Part shown: in pieces, positions 53,620-61,784 of the stretch
Layout of the letters: each line of letters opens with the position of its first letter
Position numbering within the stretch: the stretch's first letter is position 1
From: an uncultured Clostridium sp.
Lineage (GTDB): Bacteria > Bacillota > Clostridia > Oscillospirales > Butyricicoccaceae
Length of the DNA: 64,000 nt
Direction: 5' to 3'
Assembly: GCA_947427035.1 (NCBI GenBank)
Contig: CANEGK010000002.1
Location: 1-64,000 of the forward strand
Notes under the pieces: model-generated
Database searches by the model: none
The model's input: only the letters and a program-made list of their open reading frames with translations
Told to the model about the DNA's origin: nothing
Program-made: the position numbers and the translations under genes

Positions 53620-54599
53620 TCGAGCTGGCGGCCGGCCTGCAAAGCAAAAACCGGTTTGTCCTGGGGCCGATGGCCGGCGTCACGGACGCCGCGTTCCGCA
53701 CCGTCTGTATGGAACAGGGCGCGGGGTTGTGTTATACTGAAATGGTGAGCGCAAAGGCGCTGACCTATCACGATAAAAAAACGGCGTCGCTGCTGGCGCT
53801 GACGCCCGCGCAGCGGCCGGTCATCGCCCAGATTTTCGGGAGCGAGCCCGACGTCATGGCCGAAGGCGCGCGCCTGGCGCTGGAGCTTTCGGCGGCCGAC
53901 GGCATTGACATCAACATGGGCTGCCCCATGCCAAAAATCACGGGAAACGGCGAGGGCAGCGCGCTCATGCGCGACCTCGCGGCGGCCTCGCGCGTCATCA
54001 AAGCGGTGCGGCGCGCCGTGCCTGTACCGCTGTCGGTCAAGTTCCGCGCCGGCTGGGATGAAGAAGACAAAAACGCCGTCCCGTTTGCTCGCATGGCGCA
54101 GGAGAGCGGCGCGGATTTTGTGTGCGTGCATGGCCGAACCCGATCGCAGTTTTACGGCGGGACGAGCGATCGCACCATTGTCGCCGCGGTGAAAGAAGCG
54201 GTGTCCATACCGGTCATCGCCAGCGGCGACGCGCTGTCGGCCCGCGCGTGTGATGAACTGCTGCGCGACACCGGCGCCGACGCCGTCATGCTGGCGCGCG
54301 GGGCACAGGGCGCGCCCTGGGTTTTTGCGCAGTGCCTCGCGCTGGCGCGCGGCGAAGAACCCGCGCCGCCCAGCGTGCAGACACATATCGAACTGATGCG
54401 CCGGCATGTGCGCCTGGTCTGCGAAATGAAAGGCGAAGAGCGCGGAATGCCGGAGATCCGCAAGCACGCGCTGTGGTATCTGGGCCGCCTGCGCGGCGGC
54501 AAACCCTTTAAAACTGCGATGGCGCAGGTGAGCACCCTGCGCCGGTTTGAAGAAATATGCGGCGAGCTGAAGAACGCCCGATTGCAGGTGAAAGAATGA
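53616..54599 (+). CDS. dusB: tRNA-dihydrouridine synthase (DusB type)
   Basis: 327 residues from GTG 53616-53618 overlapping the capA stop. FMN enzyme reducing uridines in tRNA. Signature GPMAGVTDAAFRTV, CYTEMVSAKAL, catalytic Cys in INMGCPMPKITGNGEGSAL (core NMGCPMPK), VKFRAGWD, VHGRTRSQFY, IASGDALS and VMLARGAQGAPW. In Firmicutes dusB is often an isolated housekeeping gene; here it is coupled on both sides by 4-bp overlaps. Confidence 0.93.
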   Translation: MIELAAGLQSKNRFVLGPMAGVTDAAFRTVCMEQGAGLCYTEMVSAKALTYHDKKTASLLALTPAQRPVIAQIFGSEPDVMAEGARLALELSAADGIDINMGCPMPKITGNGEGSALMRDLAAASRVIKAVRRAVPVPLSVKFRAGWDEEDKNAVPFARMAQESGADFVCVHGRTRSQFYGGTSDRTIVAAVKEAVSIPVIASGDALSARACDELLRDTGADAVMLARGAQGAPWVFAQCLALARGEEPAPPSVQTHIELMRRHVRLVCEMKGEERGMPEIRKHALWYLGRLRGGKPFKTAMAQVSTLRRFEEICGELKNARLQVKE

Positions 54600-55207
54600 G
54601 CAACGAACAGGCCGTAGTCCGGCGCGCCCGGGCAGGCGATCAAGGCGCTTTTGAAGAGCTTGTGTTCACGTACGAGAAAAAAATCTATCATTTATCCCTG
54701 CGCTACACCGGCAGCGAACAGGATGCCATGGATGTGACGCAGGAGGTTTTTCTGCGCGTTTTCCGCTTTCTCCCGCAGTTCCAGGAGGAAAGCCGTTTTT
54801 CCACCTGGCTGTACCGCATCGCCGTCAACGCCAATATGGACTTTCTGCGTAAGCGCGGACAGGCGAACGATCTGTCGCTCGACGCCGAGGATGAAGAGGG
54901 GCTGAGCTACGAGATCAGCGACCTGCGCTATAACCCGGAAAGCCAGCTGGAGCGCATAGAGCTGCAGCAGGCCATCTGCGAGGGCATCCGGTCCCTGCCG
55001 CCGCGTATGCGTGAAATCCTTATTTTGCGCGATATCAGCGGCCTGACTTACGAAGAGATCGGAAGGGCCCTGTCCATTGAACAGGGCACCGTCAAATCCC
55101 GCCTGTCGCGCGCCCGCGGCCGGCTCTGCGCCTTTTTGAGCGCCAACGGGAACAATTCCCGAAGGGCTGCGTCAAAAAGGCAGATGGAGGGCACGCGCAA
55201 TGAATAA
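54596..55207 (+). CDS. ECF-type RNA polymerase sigma factor
   Basis: 203 residues. Sigma region 2 (about 20-90; AFEELVFTYEKKIYHLSLRY, DAMDVTQEVFLRVF, STWLYRIAVNANMDFLRK) and region 4 (about 130-185; LPPRMREILILRDISGLTYEEIG, TVKSRLSRARGRL). SigW/RpoE-like. Starts within the dusB stop (ATGA) and overlaps the anti-sigma start by 8 bp. No GGAAC-type ECF autoregulatory promoter is visible in front of it, so expression probably depends on the capA promoter. Confidence 0.93.
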   Translation: MSNEQAVVRRARAGDQGAFEELVFTYEKKIYHLSLRYTGSEQDAMDVTQEVFLRVFRFLPQFQEESRFSTWLYRIAVNANMDFLRKRGQANDLSLDAEDEEGLSYEISDLRYNPESQLERIELQQAICEGIRSLPPRMREILILRDISGLTYEEIGRALSIEQGTVKSRLSRARGRLCAFLSANGNNSRRAASKRQMEGTRNE

Positions 55208-56114
55208 CTGTCAGGATTACATCATTAAAATGAACCAATATCTGGACGGCGAGCTGCCCGTGGACGAAATTTCCGATCTGCTGCGCCACATGGACGAATG
55301 TGAGGAATGCAGAAAGAAGTATGAAAACCTGAAGATCGTCGCGTTTGAAACGCGGCATCTCCGTGCAGAAACGCCGCGCCAGCTGCACGCAAACATCATG
55401 AACGCCATTGCGCATGAGCGCCCGATTCGCCGCCTGCGCCGCCTGAACCGGCTGGGCCATTTGGCGGCGCTGGCCGCCTGCGGCGCGCTGCTCGTCGTCA
55501 TGGTCAATACCGTGGCGCCCTGGCTGCGCGAAAAGCCGCTGTTCGGCGGCTCGTCGAATTACAGCGGCGAGGCGGCAGACGAAAGCATGAATATGGCCCC
55601 TATGGCGCCGCAGGCGGCCGAAAGCGCGCCGGAAGATGCGGGAGGAGCGGAAAGAAGCCTGGCAGCGGACAATGACGCTGCGGCCATGCCGGCCGCAGCG
55701 CCCGGCGACGCGGCGACAGCGTATGATCAGAACGGCGAAGGCGAAAACGGGCCGGAAAAGGATCAGCCTGACGCCGCTTCCGGCGAGGCGCAGCCCGGGG
55801 TGCTGATGCAGACGGCGGGGTACGACCACGACCTGTTCACGGTGCCCGCCCTTCGATCGTCCGAGCTGGTAGCCTGGTATATTATTGCGACCGGGACTGG
55901 CGATCCGTCCGAGCTTTTTCCCATGGAATCGGTGATAGGCGAGCGGGAGCTGGGCGAAACGTATATCTTTGTGCCCAACACGGCCGGCGAAAAGGAAGAG
56001 GCCGGCCAGACGCTGATAGACGCCGGATTTATTCTGCACGACAACGTTGACAACCTCCCGGAAGTCGACGAAACGGCGGAGTACGGCCTGATCGTCGTTT
56101 TCGAAAGCAGGTGA
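55200..56114 (+). CDS. Anti-sigma factor with zinc-finger ZAS domain and extracellular domain
   Basis: 304 residues. N-terminal zf-HC2/ZAS motif HMDECEECRKKYENL (H-x3-C-x2-C) holds the sigma factor in the cytosol. One membrane helix at about 82-103 (LAALAACGALLVVMV). Outside the membrane there is a ~90-residue Ala/Glu/Asp/Met-rich disordered segment, then a folded alpha/beta region (~200-304; AWYIIATGTGDPSELFP, GETYIFVPNTAGE). The outer domain does not resemble a known sensor. Overlap with the sigma gene implies a matched pair. Confidence 0.88.
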   Translation: MNNCQDYIIKMNQYLDGELPVDEISDLLRHMDECEECRKKYENLKIVAFETRHLRAETPRQLHANIMNAIAHERPIRRLRRLNRLGHLAALAACGALLVVMVNTVAPWLREKPLFGGSSNYSGEAADESMNMAPMAPQAAESAPEDAGGAERSLAADNDAAAMPAAAPGDAATAYDQNGEGENGPEKDQPDAASGEAQPGVLMQTAGYDHDLFTVPALRSSELVAWYIIATGTGDPSELFPMESVIGERELGETYIFVPNTAGEKEEAGQTLIDAGFILHDNVDNLPEVDETAEYGLIVVFESR

Positions 56115-56123
56115 CGGACGCCT

Positions 56124-56831
56124 GTGGATAAAGGAGAGGACAAGGCGCTTGCGCGCCTGCGGTGCAGCACCATTGATTTTCCGTGGATTACGGCGCCCAG
56201 GCGTTCGATGCAGGCGCTGCTGCCGGGCGCCGAGGTCGTCTGTATGAAAAAGGGCGACATCCTGTACGATTGCAATTATGACGGAAGCGACGTTTTCATT
56301 GTGCGCGACGGGCGGATTTTCAATTACTTTGTCACTTCGCGCGGGCATGAAAAGGTGGTGGGGGTCTTTACCGCCGGTTCGCTTTTGGGCGAGCTGCGCG
56401 CGCTGGACGCCGGCGCCGACTTTTACACCTCGCAGGTCTGTTCTGAAAGCGCGTCCGTGTACAAAGTTTCGGCGAAGCGGTTTTTACAGGCAATTGAACA
56501 GGACGCCGAGGTGCGTATGGCTGTGTACGAAAGCCTGGCGGCAAAGATCCGGCTGATGTCGCGCCAGATCGAATATTCGGTCTGCACGTCGGCTCTGACC
56601 AAAATCGCCTATCTTCTGCTGTCGGCCTGTAAATATTATGGCGAACCGGCAGAGGGCGGGCAGCGCATCCCCCTCAGCTTTACGCACAGCGAAATCGCGC
56701 GGATTTGCGGCATCAGCCGCGTTTCGGCCAGCAATAAATTGCAGGAGCTGCGCTCCCGCGGGGCGATTGCGCAGGAGGACGGCCGTTTTATCTTATGCGA
56801 TCTGGAGTATCTGCTGTCGCTTGTGGAATGA
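56124..56831 (+). CDS. Crp/Fnr family transcriptional regulator
   Basis: 235 residues from GTG 56124-56126 with only a weak site upstream; a later start would cut the sensor domain. Cyclic-nucleotide-binding fold at 25-140 (VCMKKGDILYDCNYDGSDVF, GSLLGELRALD) and C-terminal winged HTH (FTHSEIARICGISRVSASNKL, RGAIAQEDGRFIL). No N-terminal Fnr cysteine cluster is evident. It lies 9 bp after the anti-sigma gene and closes the operon, so a stress signal could feed both regulators (inference). Confidence 0.9.
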   Translation: MDKGEDKALARLRCSTIDFPWITAPRRSMQALLPGAEVVCMKKGDILYDCNYDGSDVFIVRDGRIFNYFVTSRGHEKVVGVFTAGSLLGELRALDAGADFYTSQVCSESASVYKVSAKRFLQAIEQDAEVRMAVYESLAAKIRLMSRQIEYSVCTSALTKIAYLLLSACKYYGEPAEGGQRIPLSFTHSEIARICGISRVSASNKLQELRSRGAIAQEDGRFILCDLEYLLSLVE

Positions 56832-56895: not shown

Positions 56896-57687
56896 CTACA
56901 AAAGGTGCTTAAACAGCTCTTTGGCCCATGACAGCCAGGCGGGCACGCAGCTGTCAAGCAGCTCTTTGACGGTTTCCACATCCTGCGCGGACAGTTCCCC
57001 GATCTTCTGAAAAAGGCTGCCAGATGCCCGGGTTGCGCCCAGCGCGATCATGGCCCGGGCGCTGTCGCCGATGGCGATGTATCGGCCCCTGGCCAGGGCC
57101 CCCGCGGTAAAACCGCCCATAGCGACGGCGCCGAAGGAAACCATGCCCAGGCTGATGGCGCCGGCCGAAAGCACGCCGGCAGAAAAACAGCCGGCGGACA
57201 GCCCCCCGAGTGCGAACAGCCCGGCAGACAGCAGCCCCAGGGACAGCATACCAAAGGACAAAACTCCGGCAGACAGCATCCCGAAGGATATCACTCCCCG
57301 CGCTTTCATGCCGACGGCAATGACGCCGCGGGCCTTTACGCCGACGGCGACAATGCCCCGCGCGTTTCTGGCGACGTGCCACAGCGGCAGCCCCCACAGG
57401 GTTTTATCGCTTTTTCGCTCGCGGGGGAGAGGGCGAAAAGAAAGGGATTCCGGCGGCGCGTCATCGGGCGCGCTGCCGGCGCCGGCTTCGGCCGCGTCCC
57501 GGAGCAGGTAATCGAGCGAGCAGCGGAACAGATCGCTGATTTGAATGAGCTTGTCGGTTTCAGGGTAGGCGGCATCCGATTCCCATTTGCTGATGGCCTG
57601 TCTGGAAACGCCGAGAAGCTCTGCAAGCTGCTCCTGCGTATAGTTGTTTTCCTTTCTCAGCTTGGACAGTTTACTGCCGAGCGACAT
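56896..57687 (-). CDS. XRE-type HTH protein with 19 glycine-phased pentapeptide repeats
   Basis: 263 residues from MSLGSKLSKLRKENNYTQEQ, with GGAGGG upstream; an earlier in-frame start (57744) lacks a site. Residues 1-60 are a standard XRE/Cro-CI HTH (LLGVSRQAISKWES). Residues 61-107 form a polar linker. Residues 111-205 carry Gly at every fifth position without a break (19 pentads; GVLSF, GMLSL, GLLSA), a composition that suggests a tight beta-solenoid or a membrane-embedded element. The last 45 residues are helical. The usual members of this HTH class have a helical or membrane C-terminal half instead. Ligand and target unknown. Confidence 0.85.
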   Translation of the reverse strand: MSLGSKLSKLRKENNYTQEQLAELLGVSRQAISKWESDAAYPETDKLIQISDLFRCSLDYLLRDAAEAGAGSAPDDAPPESLSFRPLPRERKSDKTLWGLPLWHVARNARGIVAVGVKARGVIAVGMKARGVISFGMLSAGVLSFGMLSLGLLSAGLFALGGLSAGCFSAGVLSAGAISLGMVSFGAVAMGGFTAGALARGRYIAIGDSARAMIALGATRASGSLFQKIGELSAQDVETVKELLDSCVPAWLSWAKELFKHLL

Positions 57688-57820
57688 GATTGTGCCCTCC
57701 ATTCCGGGTGAATTGTTCCCATTCATCATACCCGATTTTTGCACAAAAGGCCATCATTTTGCGGTTTCGCGATGTAAACTTCAGGTTGCATTCATAAAAA
57801 GCAGGGGGTGCTTTTACAGC

Positions 57821-57873: not shown

Positions 57874-58989
57874 TTAAATGTGCTGTTCGGACGGTGTTTC
57901 GCGCTTTTGCCCGCGCGCCTTTTTGAAGCGCACGACAACCTGCTTGACCAACATGAAGCCCATGACGATGACGCCCATATAGCCGGTATAGGGGTATACG
58001 ATGCCAACCAGGTCGGTGAAAGGCAGGTGGGACAGAACAATGGCGGCGACAACGGCGCCCGCACAGGTCAGGTTATAGCGGCGGGTGTGCTCTGTCGCCA
58101 CCCGGCGGCAGACAACCCACAGAAGGGGGATGGCCGTCGAGTAGATGCCGGCCAGCAGGATAAAGACGAAGATACCGGCCAGGGCGGGGTGGATGTTATT
58201 CGCCAGCGTCAGCGCCGGAATGGCCTTGTCATGCACACTGCCGATATTGCACAAAAGCCCCAAATTCATGACGATGATGGCGAGCACTAAAAACAGACCG
58301 CCGATAAAACCGCCGGCAACGCCTGTTTTGCGGGTTTTGGCCGTTTTGGAAAGCTGTGAAAGGAACGGCAGCAGAATGATGGCGTTATAGCCGGTGTACA
58401 GGGCGCCGGCAAAGAGCCAGTTGGCAGCCGGCTGCTCGATGGAAACCGACCGCATGGTCAGGCTTACATTTTGCAGGTTGCCCAGGTTGGCGGCGGCCGC
58501 CGTGCCGCCGATAAACAGGGAAAAAACGATGATAACCGGGCCGATGACGCCGATGATGCTGACCAGCTTGTCAAGTCCCATAAAAACGGTCGCCAGGGCC
58601 AAAACGCCCATGATGACGCTGCCGGCGAAGGAAGGCAGACCCCAGTATTCGTTGAGCGTCGCGCCGGCGCCGGCCAGCATGATGGTAAAAACGCCAAAGC
58701 TGAAAATAACCGAGAACCATTCAAGCGCAGTGCCCAGCCCCGCGCCGCAGTAATAGCGGTAAATTTCGCCGCCCTCGCCGGAGGACAGCGAGCGGCCGGT
58801 CTGCATCAGGGACATGCCAAGCCAGATAAACAGAACCAGACTGACGGCGCAGGCGGCAAAGCTCTTCCAGCCGTACGACGTGAAAAACTGCATGATTTCC
58901 TGGCCGGTCGCGTAGCCCGAGCCGATGCAAAAGGCGATGTAGGCGCCCCCCAGCTTGACGGCGTCGGTTATTTTTTCTCTGCGGTTCAC
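57874..58989 (-). CDS. YkvI-like membrane transporter
   Basis: 371 residues from GTG 58987-58989 after GGAGGGG. About ten hydrophobic helices with the APC-superfamily-like start GGAYIAFCIGSGYATGQEIM, then GPVIIVFSLFIGG, NWLFAGALYTGYNAIILLPFL and YTGYMGVIVMGFMLVKQ. This fits the YkvI family, relatives of amino-acid and sodium symporters with unknown substrate. It is divergent from the germination operon and has an extended -10 promoter. Confidence 0.85.
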   Translation of the reverse strand: MNRREKITDAVKLGGAYIAFCIGSGYATGQEIMQFFTSYGWKSFAACAVSLVLFIWLGMSLMQTGRSLSSGEGGEIYRYYCGAGLGTALEWFSVIFSFGVFTIMLAGAGATLNEYWGLPSFAGSVIMGVLALATVFMGLDKLVSIIGVIGPVIIVFSLFIGGTAAAANLGNLQNVSLTMRSVSIEQPAANWLFAGALYTGYNAIILLPFLSQLSKTAKTRKTGVAGGFIGGLFLVLAIIVMNLGLLCNIGSVHDKAIPALTLANNIHPALAGIFVFILLAGIYSTAIPLLWVVCRRVATEHTRRYNLTCAGAVVAAIVLSHLPFTDLVGIVYPYTGYMGVIVMGFMLVKQVVVRFKKARGQKRETPSEQHI

Positions 58990-59065: not shown

Positions 59066-59149
59066 GGTATTGTGAAAAAAATATCGATATAAAAAGCAAA
59101 GATTTTGTCGCTTTGCACAAAGACATCTTGTGCTGTCTGTGCAAAGAGC

Positions 59150-59179
59150 TGTATTTTCAGCGGCCAGAATGCCATACTA
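59150..59179 (+). promoter_or_regulatory. SigG-type promoter of the ger operon
   Basis: CATACTA (59173-59179) equals the SigG -10 consensus; TGTATT 17 bp upstream (59150-59155) matches TGAATA at 4 of 6 positions. No sigma-A promoter is evident. The start site would leave a ~70-nt leader to the GTG at 59257. Confidence 0.6.
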
Positions 59180-59256
59180 AGGGAATTAAAAGACTGCGGC
59201 ACGCGGGAAAAGCGGCATTTGGCGCCGTACGGCCGCATGAAAGGGAGAGATGCAGG

Positions 59257-60702
59257 GTGTCGGTATCGGTAGAGCTCAAGCAGAACATCGACAAAATGCA
59301 CAGGCTTTTTGACCGGGACAAGACGGTGATTACGCGTATGGTCAACCCGGCCGGCTGGCCGGCCTGTGAAATCTGCCTGTTTTTCTGTGACGGTATGGTC
59401 AGCTCGGCCAGCATTAACGAAAGCATCATCAAGCCGCTGACCCTGATGGCGCCGCCGCCTGAAAAAACAGACAGGCTGCGTTATCTGGAGCAGAGCGTCG
59501 TGCAGTCCAACGAGGCGCGGCAGAGCGGCGACTGGGACGATCTGGTGTACTCTATGGTATACGGCGATACCATTTTATTTTGCAGCGGCTGTGACAAGGC
59601 GCTGGTGCTCAATACCAAGGGCTTTGCCATGCGGGGGATCGAGGAGCCGGACGGCGAAACGGTGCTCAAGGGCCCGCGCGAAGGGTTTACCGAGGGCATT
59701 TTGCGCAACCTGTCCATGCTGCGCCGGAAAATCCGCGTCAGCGAGCTCAAGCTGGAGTATATGACGCTGGGCAGCGTCAGCAAAACGGTGTGCGCCCTGT
59801 GCTACATTGACGGGATTGTGGACAGCGCTGTGCTGCTGGAGGTGCGCAGGCGGCTGCAAACGGTCGCGATGGACGGCATTCTGGATTCCAACTACATTGC
59901 CGAGATGATTCGCGACCACAAAAAAAGCCCCTTTAAAACCATCGGGACAACCGAACGGCCCGACGTTGTCGCCGCCAAACTGCTCGAAGGCCGGGTGGCG
60001 CTCGTCGTCGACGGCACGCCGGTCGTCCTAACCATGCCGGGAATCCTGATCGAGAGCTTCCAGTCGAGCGAGGATTATTACGTCGGCTTTCAGTTTGCCG
60101 CCATTTCGCGCTTTTTGCGCATGGCGGGCTTTCTGCTCGCCATTTCGGTGGTGCCGGTGTACCTTGCGCTCATGACCTTTCACGCCGAAATGCTGCCCAC
60201 GCCGCTGCTGCTGTCCATCGCGTCGGCGCGGCAGGGAGTGCCTTTTCCGTCCGTCCTGGAGGCGCTGACGCTGCTGACCGCCTTTGATCTGCTGCGTGAA
60301 GCGGGGACGCGCACGCCCTCGGCCATCGGGCAGACGCTGTCCATTGTCGGCGGCCTGGTCGTCGGCTCGGCCGCCGTCGAAGCGCGCTTTGCCTCGGCGC
60401 CTATGGTCATCATCATTGCTTTTTCCGGCATCACCGGGCTGATGATTCCCAAGCTCAAGTCGGCCGTTATTCTGGTGCGGCTGGGGCTGATAGCGCTGTC
60501 GGCCTGCGCCGGGCTTTACGGGTATATACTCGGGATGGCGGCGCTCATGATGCATTTGGCTTCCATGCAGTCCTTCGGCGTCAACATGCTGTCGGCGGGG
60601 CCGCTGTCCGAGTTGGGCAGCCACGAGGACAGCCTGATGCGCGCCCCCTTTGCACGCATGAAAAAGCGCGGCCGCTTCCTGTCGCGCGGGGAGCGCTCGT
60701 GA
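59257..60702 (+). CDS. GerA family spore germination receptor subunit A
   Basis: 481 residues from GTG 59257 after AAGGGAGAG, the usual GerA length (~480-500). The N-terminal soluble half holds VTRMVNPAGWP-like TRMVNPAGW, GDTILFCSGCDKALVLNTKG and EEPDGETVLKGPREGFTEG (core KGPREGF, the GerA hallmark). The membrane half (about 285-445) has the AISRFLRMAGFLLAISVVPVY and PFPSVLEALTLLTAFDLLREAG segments. Subunit A of an inner-spore-membrane nutrient receptor. Overlaps the next gene by 4 bp (GTGA). Confidence 0.94.
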   Translation: MSVSVELKQNIDKMHRLFDRDKTVITRMVNPAGWPACEICLFFCDGMVSSASINESIIKPLTLMAPPPEKTDRLRYLEQSVVQSNEARQSGDWDDLVYSMVYGDTILFCSGCDKALVLNTKGFAMRGIEEPDGETVLKGPREGFTEGILRNLSMLRRKIRVSELKLEYMTLGSVSKTVCALCYIDGIVDSAVLLEVRRRLQTVAMDGILDSNYIAEMIRDHKKSPFKTIGTTERPDVVAAKLLEGRVALVVDGTPVVLTMPGILIESFQSSEDYYVGFQFAAISRFLRMAGFLLAISVVPVYLALMTFHAEMLPTPLLLSIASARQGVPFPSVLEALTLLTAFDLLREAGTRTPSAIGQTLSIVGGLVVGSAAVEARFASAPMVIIIAFSGITGLMIPKLKSAVILVRLGLIALSACAGLYGYILGMAALMMHLASMQSFGVNMLSAGPLSELGSHEDSLMRAPFARMKKRGRFLSRGERS

Positions 60703-61784
60703 AGCGCGGGGCGGGAATGGCGCTGGCGCTCTGCCTGCTGCTGTGCGGCTGCAAAGATTACCGGGAGCTTGATCAGCGCGACATTGTTTCGGGCGTCGCC
60801 GTCGACCGCGTGAAGGACGGCTATGCGCTGCTGCTGTCCATTGCCGATGTCACCGCCGGCTCGGACGACAACCCGGGCGCGCGTTGGCTGCCATTGCAGG
60901 GGGCGTCGCTGGCCGAAGCCGTAGGCAGCGGGGCGGGCAGCACCGGGCGGCAGGCCTATCTGGGGCATATGCAGCTGGCCGTTGTAGGCGATGAAACGGC
61001 GCGCGGCGGCCTGGACGACCTGCTCTGGTATTTGCAGCGCAGCGCCGACGTTCATATGACGCTGGCGCTTGCTGTGGCCGAGGGTGATGCTGTCGCCTTG
61101 TTTCAAAAGCAGGAGGATGCGCAGGCCGCCGCGTTTGATTTATCCCGCGCAGCCGTTCACGCCGGCAAGGCGGGGCTGGCGCCCGACATGCCGCTGTACC
61201 GTTTTCTCAGCGACCGGCAGGAAGAAGGGATCGAAGGAATTTTGCCCCGCATTTCCACCGCCGAAGGGGGCGTGCATATAGAAGGCGCCGCTCTTTTCAG
61301 GGGCGACAAGCTTTGCGGGCGGCTGGATCCGAAGCTCACGCAGGTTCTGCTCATGGCGCGCGGACTGCTGCACGAAGGGGTTCTGACCGTCAACCAGGGG
61401 GAAGGCAGCGTCGCTTTTGACATCCGCGGCTGCACGGCGCGGCTGCGCACGCAGGAAAGCGGAGACGGCGTGCTTGCAAAGTACGAAATCAAGCTGTCGC
61501 TCGAGCTGTGCCAGGGCGCGCAGAGCGACAGCCTGAGCGCTGAAATCAAAGAGCAATATGAAAAGCTGGCGCAAAGCGAGGTCGAGCGGCGCTTTGTCGA
61601 GCTGTGCACGCTGCTGCAAAAAACCTATGGCGTCGATTCGCTGGGGGTAGGAAGGCATATTCACCGCCACGACGCCGGGCTGTGGGCGCGCATGGGCGAA
61701 GACTGGGAGAAAAACTTTGCCGCCAGCCAAATCACGGCGGAGGCCGACGTGGTGCTGCACGGCAGCGGGCGTTCGCTTAAATAA
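60699..61784 (+). CDS. Ger(x)C family spore germination lipoprotein
   Basis: 361 residues from GTG 60699. Lipoprotein signal MALALCLLLCGCKDY, with Cys in the LLCGC lipobox, followed by the family hallmark YRELDQRDIVSGVAVDRVKDGY (core ELDQRDIVSGVAVD). The middle GQAYLGHMQLAVVGDE-like stretch and C-terminal VERRFVELCTLLQKTYGVDSLGVG are GerAC-like. Lipid-anchored subunit C of the germinant receptor. Overlaps the upstream subunit A gene. Confidence 0.93.
   Translation: MKRGAGMALALCLLLCGCKDYRELDQRDIVSGVAVDRVKDGYALLLSIADVTAGSDDNPGARWLPLQGASLAEAVGSGAGSTGRQAYLGHMQLAVVGDETARGGLDDLLWYLQRSADVHMTLALAVAEGDAVALFQKQEDAQAAAFDLSRAAVHAGKAGLAPDMPLYRFLSDRQEEGIEGILPRISTAEGGVHIEGAALFRGDKLCGRLDPKLTQVLLMARGLLHEGVLTVNQGEGSVAFDIRGCTARLRTQESGDGVLAKYEIKLSLELCQGAQSDSLSAEIKEQYEKLAQSEVERRFVELCTLLQKTYGVDSLGVGRHIHRHDAGLWARMGEDWEKNFAASQITAEADVVLHGSGRSLK

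Follow-up and report, generated by a model that had tools for sequence, protein, structure and literature searches.

The stretch of DNA analyzed here (hereafter the window) comprises 64,000 nucleotides of contig CANEGK010000002.1 from an uncultured Clostridium sp. Between its positions 56,896 and 57,687 we found a gene for a transcriptional regulator that joins an XRE-type DNA-binding domain to a C-terminal half built on a glycine-phased five-residue repeat (table 1). Its reading frame (56899–57687, reverse strand) translates without stops into 263 aa. A mechanically listed open reading frame starting at a GTG is longer (282 aa vs. 263 aa from the ATG), but a ribosome site ahead of the ATG at 57687 and the agreement with the starts of orthologues indicate that translation begins at the latter.

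Convergent with this gene is one for a Crp/Fnr-type regulator (56124–56831, forward strand), before which lie genes for an ECF sigma factor and then a zf-HC2 anti-sigma protein whose C-terminal part is long and variable (54557–56114, forward strand). Upstream of the regulator there is a 371-aa membrane protein (57874–58989, reverse strand), permease-like but with no significant Pfam or NCBIfam match. Spore germination genes follow (59113–61784, forward strand), encoding a GerA-family protein (PF03323, 1.2e-153) and then a 361-aa product similar to GerAC-type lipoproteins. The presence of GerA-family and GerAC-like genes suggests that the host is probably a spore former.

Table 1. Position of the regulator gene, its protein regions and its putative control sites in the window
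Feature	Coordinates	Strand	Basis or remark
XRE-pentad regulator CDS	56896..57687	-	263 aa; stop codon 56896-56898; ATG at 57685-57687
Ribosome-binding site GGAGGG	57695..57700	-	Sequence
XRE/HTH_3 DNA-binding domain, residues 1-62, SRQAISKWES recognition region	57502..57687	-	HTH_3 profile
Solenoid N-terminal cap, residues 90-104, E-x-K-S-x5-G-x-P-L-x-H	57376..57420	-	74-sequence alignment
19 glycine-phased pentads, residues 111-205	57073..57357	-	Two pentads per predicted solenoid coil
Last predicted solenoid coils, residues 206-229, IGDSARAMIALG...	57001..57072	-	Strand to residue 229, pLDDT about 98
Two predicted C-terminal helices, residues 234-262	56902..56988	-	AlphaFold2; Trp-rich in family
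Operator-like site 1, TGCAACCTGAAGTTTACAT	57772..57790	-	Centre about -64 from inferred transcription start
Operator-like site 2, degenerate, AAACC-GCA-AAATG-ATGG	57751..57767	-	Centre about -43, over -35 region; weak copy
-10 hexamer TATGAT	57725..57730	-	42 bp past site 1, the spacing of most relatives

The N-terminal domain matches HTH_3 at 8.7e-17, with 61.3 bits against a curated cut-off of 23, and its nearest solved structures, according to Foldseek, are the DNA-binding domains of ImmR and of the P22 C2 repressor. With the exception of this domain, the regulator has no Pfam or NCBIfam match. Residues 63–88 form a linker poorly predicted by AlphaFold2, followed by a cap region that as a whole spans residues 90–107 and in which E90, S93, G99, P101, L102, and H104 do not vary among 74 sequences. 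At the other end of the repeat, tryptophan makes up 6.0% of the last 20 residues in the family, compared with 0.7% elsewhere. We also considered this tail as a strong amphipathic membrane helix, but its hydrophobic moment was modestly higher than in shuffled tails and exceeded their 95th percentile in just 23% of the members.

According to the initial annotation, the protein carries 19 unbroken pentapeptides with glycine at residues 111, 116, 121, and so on to 201, which proved to be exact. In 20,000 shuffles of residues 96–215, glycine runs with periods of 2 to 11 reached at most 9, compared with the 19 observed. While the first position of the pentad is always glycine, the second is mostly V, M, A, or L, the third is L, V, I, or F in 16 of the 19 pentads, the fourth is Ser (10) or Ala (7), and the fifth may be A, R, F, L, V, or M. 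The pentad region is present as a single copy in the host genome.

The same annotation had proposed, among other possibilities, a compact β-solenoid attached to the DNA-binding domain, and recommended a structure prediction of the C-terminal part. AlphaFold2 run on the full protein with 12 relatives placed strands at residues 108–229 (mean pLDDT 82.8). With residues 83–263 and 74 relatives, the prediction was a continuous β-solenoid with strands at 138–229, a mean pLDDT of 94.1, a pTM of 0.82 and all five models between 92 and 94, the pLDDT reaching about 98 over most of the repeat. In residues 206–229 the strict glycine phase is lost, but the strands are kept. The match to HTH_3 and the predicted solenoid agree with that proposal, except that the structural unit would be a coil of ten residues containing two pentads. 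Profile searches matched no characterized HTH family with the same repeat, finding nothing beyond the HTH, and AlphaFold2 predicted strands and no transmembrane helices.

Three kinds of data bear on the length of the coil. In both AlphaFold2 runs, the breaks between predicted strands are spaced by ten residues. In the pentad region, mutual information with APC correction has its maximum at a separation of 10 (1.11 sd); 20 and 30 give weaker maxima, and 15 and 25 give none. Within gap-free subsets covering residues 117–158, separation 10 reached 1.27 sd against 0.04 ± 0.17 in a shuffled-column null, and separation 5 gave −0.05; as the sequences in each subset share an identical gap pattern, misalignment of repeats can hardly produce this maximum. 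Finally, the size of the side chain at position 2 alternates between pentads (−0.43 at lag 1, +0.54 at lag 2). Canonical PF00805 proteins of the same order have no such alternation, although they make a weak control, having no clear 20-residue signal either. Taken together, the covariation, the size alternation and the spacing of the strand breaks show that the coil, as predicted and as read from the alignment, consists of two pentads, or ten residues, and not of the 20 residues of a quadrilateral helix. In such a roll, positions 3 and 5 of the pentad would more likely point inward and positions 2 and 4 outward, which would still give an exterior made up of V, M, L, I, or G and of A or S.

Searches for solved structures of this kind returned little. 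Foldseek of the C-terminal model against the PDB gave no match below E 1; the PDB sequence search with the whole protein returned essentially only relatives of the HTH, and that with the C-terminal profile only chance matches to designed proteins. The top fold neighbors in VIA-align were YadA-type β-roll heads (Z 7.5 and 7.1), although the superposition was poor, with an rmsd of about 9 (9.3 for the match with Z 7.5), and a YadA-like head was also matched in BFVD by Foldseek (probability 0.89, E 0.11). These left-handed β-rolls likewise have two strands per coil, but they belong to extracellular trimeric adhesins and there is no sequence match to them in the PDB; such a resemblance would not by itself amount to membership. 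The "Knotted Solenoid" fold was considered as well and set aside, for it has three-sided coils and is found in Brevundimonas proteins of a different family (PMC13123833).

Judged by its sequence, the glycine-pentad C-terminal domain is a widespread and uncatalogued domain present in dozens of species of Bacillota. A profile of the domain (E up to 1e-6) found relatives in 23 of 295 genomes of the order and in 15 of 299 genomes of the phylum, numbers that are upper bounds because several of the matches are simple-sequence. We discarded the profile matches L048–L050, L052–L055, L057, L067, L068, and L070 as simple-sequence repeats or unrelated proteins; for instance, L048 and L057 contain an open frame of 251 aa with 23 glycine pentads (GLLSVGVLSVG...), which probably represents one frame of a simple-sequence DNA repeat and not a relative. 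A scan with the pentad region alone gave no match, and one of the GTDB genomes anchored on the cap motif retrieved 145 relatives among 160 pattern matches. Taxa represented among 80 of these relatives include Clostridium, Paenibacillus, Sporolactobacillus, Fervidibacillus, Faecalibacterium, and Diplocloster, besides Haloplasma- and Anaeroplasma-like MAGs and many uncultured clostridia. The domain tree joins the window protein to L033 and L035, and these belong to a wider supported group which also contains Fervidibacillus halotolerans, the deep forks being without resolution. No relative was found in the phage records searched; plasmid records contained two, one of them annotated as "XRE family transcriptional regulator". 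We found no conserved neighbors of the XRE-pentad genes; the sole large cluster consists of generic ABC ATPases.

Nearly all relatives examined carry an XRE domain of the same type, and a smaller set has a HAAS domain (PF22564) in its place. In nine loci examined (L045, L046, L060, L061, L063, L064, L066, L114, and L124), the HAAS-pentad gene directly follows a PadR-type gene, assigned as such by eye from the sequence. Some HAAS versions also have a hydrophobic, transmembrane-like C-terminal segment beyond the solenoid. One genome with an XRE-pentad gene contains in addition a 190-aa glycine-pentad protein with neither HTH nor HAAS (L072:1426–1995, reverse strand).

The initial annotation had raised the possibility of an undescribed sensor architecture, a reading supported in part: the domain recurs in other proteins, and a HAAS fusion with a "pentapeptide repeat" domain was noted in 2024 as part of the HAAS–PadR dyad in an mSystems article (PMC11237479), whose accessible part mentions no XRE version, coil period, or operator. 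We infer that this "pentapeptide repeat" example is the glycine-pentad domain. The HAAS-pentad proteins share with the window protein the same C-terminal domain, cap motif included, but there it stands on HAAS directly after a PadR-type gene. The window protein has its DNA-binding domain on the same chain as the solenoid, the Pfam search detected no HAAS domain, and the flanking genes are those of the Crp/Fnr regulator and the membrane protein, with no PadR gene beside it. For the XRE version, the ten-residue coil, and the upstream element described below, no description was found in a literature search that left subscription papers mostly outside, and thus offers weak evidence of novelty.

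Upstream of the XRE-pentad genes there is a conserved element with the consensus tGCAACC-N3-aGTTGaCA, followed 15 bp on by tTGGTWGc; the two dyads are spaced by about 21 bp. At the window gene, the form GCAACC-N3-RGTTKACA occurs with 0 mismatches at 57773–57789, within the 200 bp upstream of the start, and this is the sole match in the 64 kb at up to 3 mismatches. Of 74 upstream regions, 53 contain site 1 with up to 2 mismatches, whereas shuffles would give 0.05. In the 41 promoters with a good −10 box (26 belonging to pentad genes and the others to the wider class of genes with the element), this box lies 40–43 bp past site 1, mostly 42, a tightness that counts inside the 9-bp range searched. 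A good −35 hexamer is absent from nearly all 41, the best one being usually 3 mismatches off the consensus, and the window promoter is without one as well. The probable reading of this sequence pattern is that the XRE-pentad protein binds the element and regulates its own gene.

The centers of the dyads at −64 and −43 assume that transcription starts 7 bp after the −10 box, the start being placed from the −10 match. The lambda CI protein occupies two dyads at the promoter of its own gene, PRM, near −42 and −65, and this promoter has a weak −35. The window gene resembles this case in its CI-like HTH and in the two-dyad layout at an own promoter with a weak −35, but its operator sequence and C-terminal domain are unrelated to those of CI, and activation by the window protein is a proposal. 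By this analogy, the layout suggests positive autoregulation, while dyads near −43 and −64 would also fit a repressor lying over the −35 region.

The host genome has just 3 sites at up to 1 mismatch, all of them ahead of XRE genes that were also matched independently in a separate search of the genome. One is the window gene. Another encodes an XRE protein of 452 aa with one transmembrane segment and a large C-terminal domain, and the third an XRE protein of 210 aa with about four transmembrane segments. No second target gene of the window regulator was identified in the host genome. A search of 117 genomes from the order gave 35 sites with the exact pattern, compared with 1 for the reversed control, and in 21 of 30 sites inspected an XRE gene lies 15–197 bp downstream. 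Most of these 21 genes encode multi-transmembrane C-terminal halves, as called by hydropathy window only, and another five encode the pentad solenoid. XRE/HTH_3 regulators with membrane-spanning C-terminal domains therefore share with the window protein the HTH type, the element, and a similar spacing, and differ in having transmembrane helices where it has a solenoid. Since one element precedes both kinds of genes, the solenoid appears to take the place of the membrane sensor of related regulators.

Based on these data, we propose, with about even odds, that the window protein is a self-regulating one-component regulator whose hydrophobic solenoid is a module for oligomerization and for sensing either the membrane surface or some hydrophobic ligand. 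The transmembrane-sensor paralogues, the HAAS fusions, some of them with a transmembrane-like segment, and the Trp-rich tail are the indirect reasons for proposing a sensor of this type. The XRE domain would bind the dyad pair before its own gene, formed by GCAACC-N3-RGTTKACA and a degenerate second copy. The C-terminal half would fold as a two-sided β-solenoid of ten residues per coil, with an E/S/G-x-P-L-x-H cap and a Trp-rich helical tail, and serve for input and oligomerization in the slot that membrane-spanning sensors occupy in paralogues with the same element and that the solenoid itself fills behind HAAS in the HAAS–PadR systems. What the hydrophobic rod and its tail detect would most likely be a hydrophobic ligand or the state of the membrane surface, and their response would alter the pairing of HTH dimers on the two dyads, adjusting the (probably positive) expression of the gene itself and of any further targets.

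The solenoid could instead be an oligomerization rod only, whose hydrophobic faces pair side by side and join XRE dimers into tetramers on the two dyads with no sensing involved. A pair of dyads spaced by about 21 bp requires dimers that cooperate, pentad positions 2 and 5 carry hydrophobic residues, the solved Knotted Solenoid proteins dimerize via a hydrophobic surface (PMC13123833), and YadA-type heads are trimeric β-rolls (PMC7247746). Nevertheless, the same domain stands behind HAAS, where other members have membrane or intracellular sensor domains, and the invariant E, S, and H of the cap exceed what a rod needs, though they are possibly structural; we regard the rod as rather unlikely. 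Less probable still is that the regulator itself is the effector: a hydrophobic solenoid under autoregulation would build up in the cell and serve as a scaffold or act on the membrane, the HTH doing no more than set its level. This would suit the self-type sites of the host genome and the solitary genes without conserved neighbors, but in all intact members examined, bar the short HTH-less L072, the domain is attached to a regulator.

A true pentapeptide-repeat (PF00805-type) quadrilateral helix of 20 residues per coil, with a hydrophobic surface, has little probability in our estimate. The window family does share with PF00805 proteins the five-residue period and the small and hydrophobic residues at fixed places, the small one standing two places ahead of the hydrophobic one, and GLTT and Pentapeptide_2 are matched weakly by some of the 74 relatives, with nothing stronger on the C-terminal domain. 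However, covariation peaks at 10 and not at 20, neither the window protein nor the 74 relatives match PF00805, and glycine replaces A/C/S, as hydrophobic residues replace the polar ones elsewhere. In the register of a 20-residue helix, the three outward positions are polar in 0–8% of cases in the glycine-pentad family, compared with 52–54% in canonical pentapeptide proteins of the same order. Neither the Foldseek matches in the PDB (E up to 10) nor the neighbors listed by VIA-align included a pentapeptide protein, although such an absence does not disprove a match. That the glycine-rich stretch forms ordinary transmembrane helices of an integral membrane regulator, despite its very high hydropathy and the transmembrane sensors of paralogues with the same element, is the most improbable reading, given the continuous strands predicted with high confidence over most of the repeat and a covariation at exactly 10, a non-helical period.

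In its broadest form, our proposal is that of a new sensor domain, that is, a glycine-clamped, externally hydrophobic solenoid with ten-residue coils that, from the cytosol, would sense either a hydrophobic ligand or the membrane surface and replace transmembrane sensors in XRE and HAAS–PadR regulators across Bacillota. We put this forward only tentatively, as it may well not hold. If true, reading the membrane from the cytosol would be an unusual way of sensing the state of the envelope without crossing the membrane. For an uncatalogued, widespread domain, the analysis yields a fold prediction, a coil length read from covariation, and a position in signaling where it is exchangeable with membrane sensors behind a common DNA-binding domain and element. 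Besides, the GCAACC element would allow many solitary genes labeled only as "XRE family transcriptional regulator" to be grouped and studied. In the loci L193–L220, GCAACC-N3-RGTTKACA marks a large class of XRE genes, many with a conserved multi-transmembrane C-terminal domain (EANEFLxxRxxAAxRIAxGxFLCI...), apparently an autoregulated membrane-sensor family.
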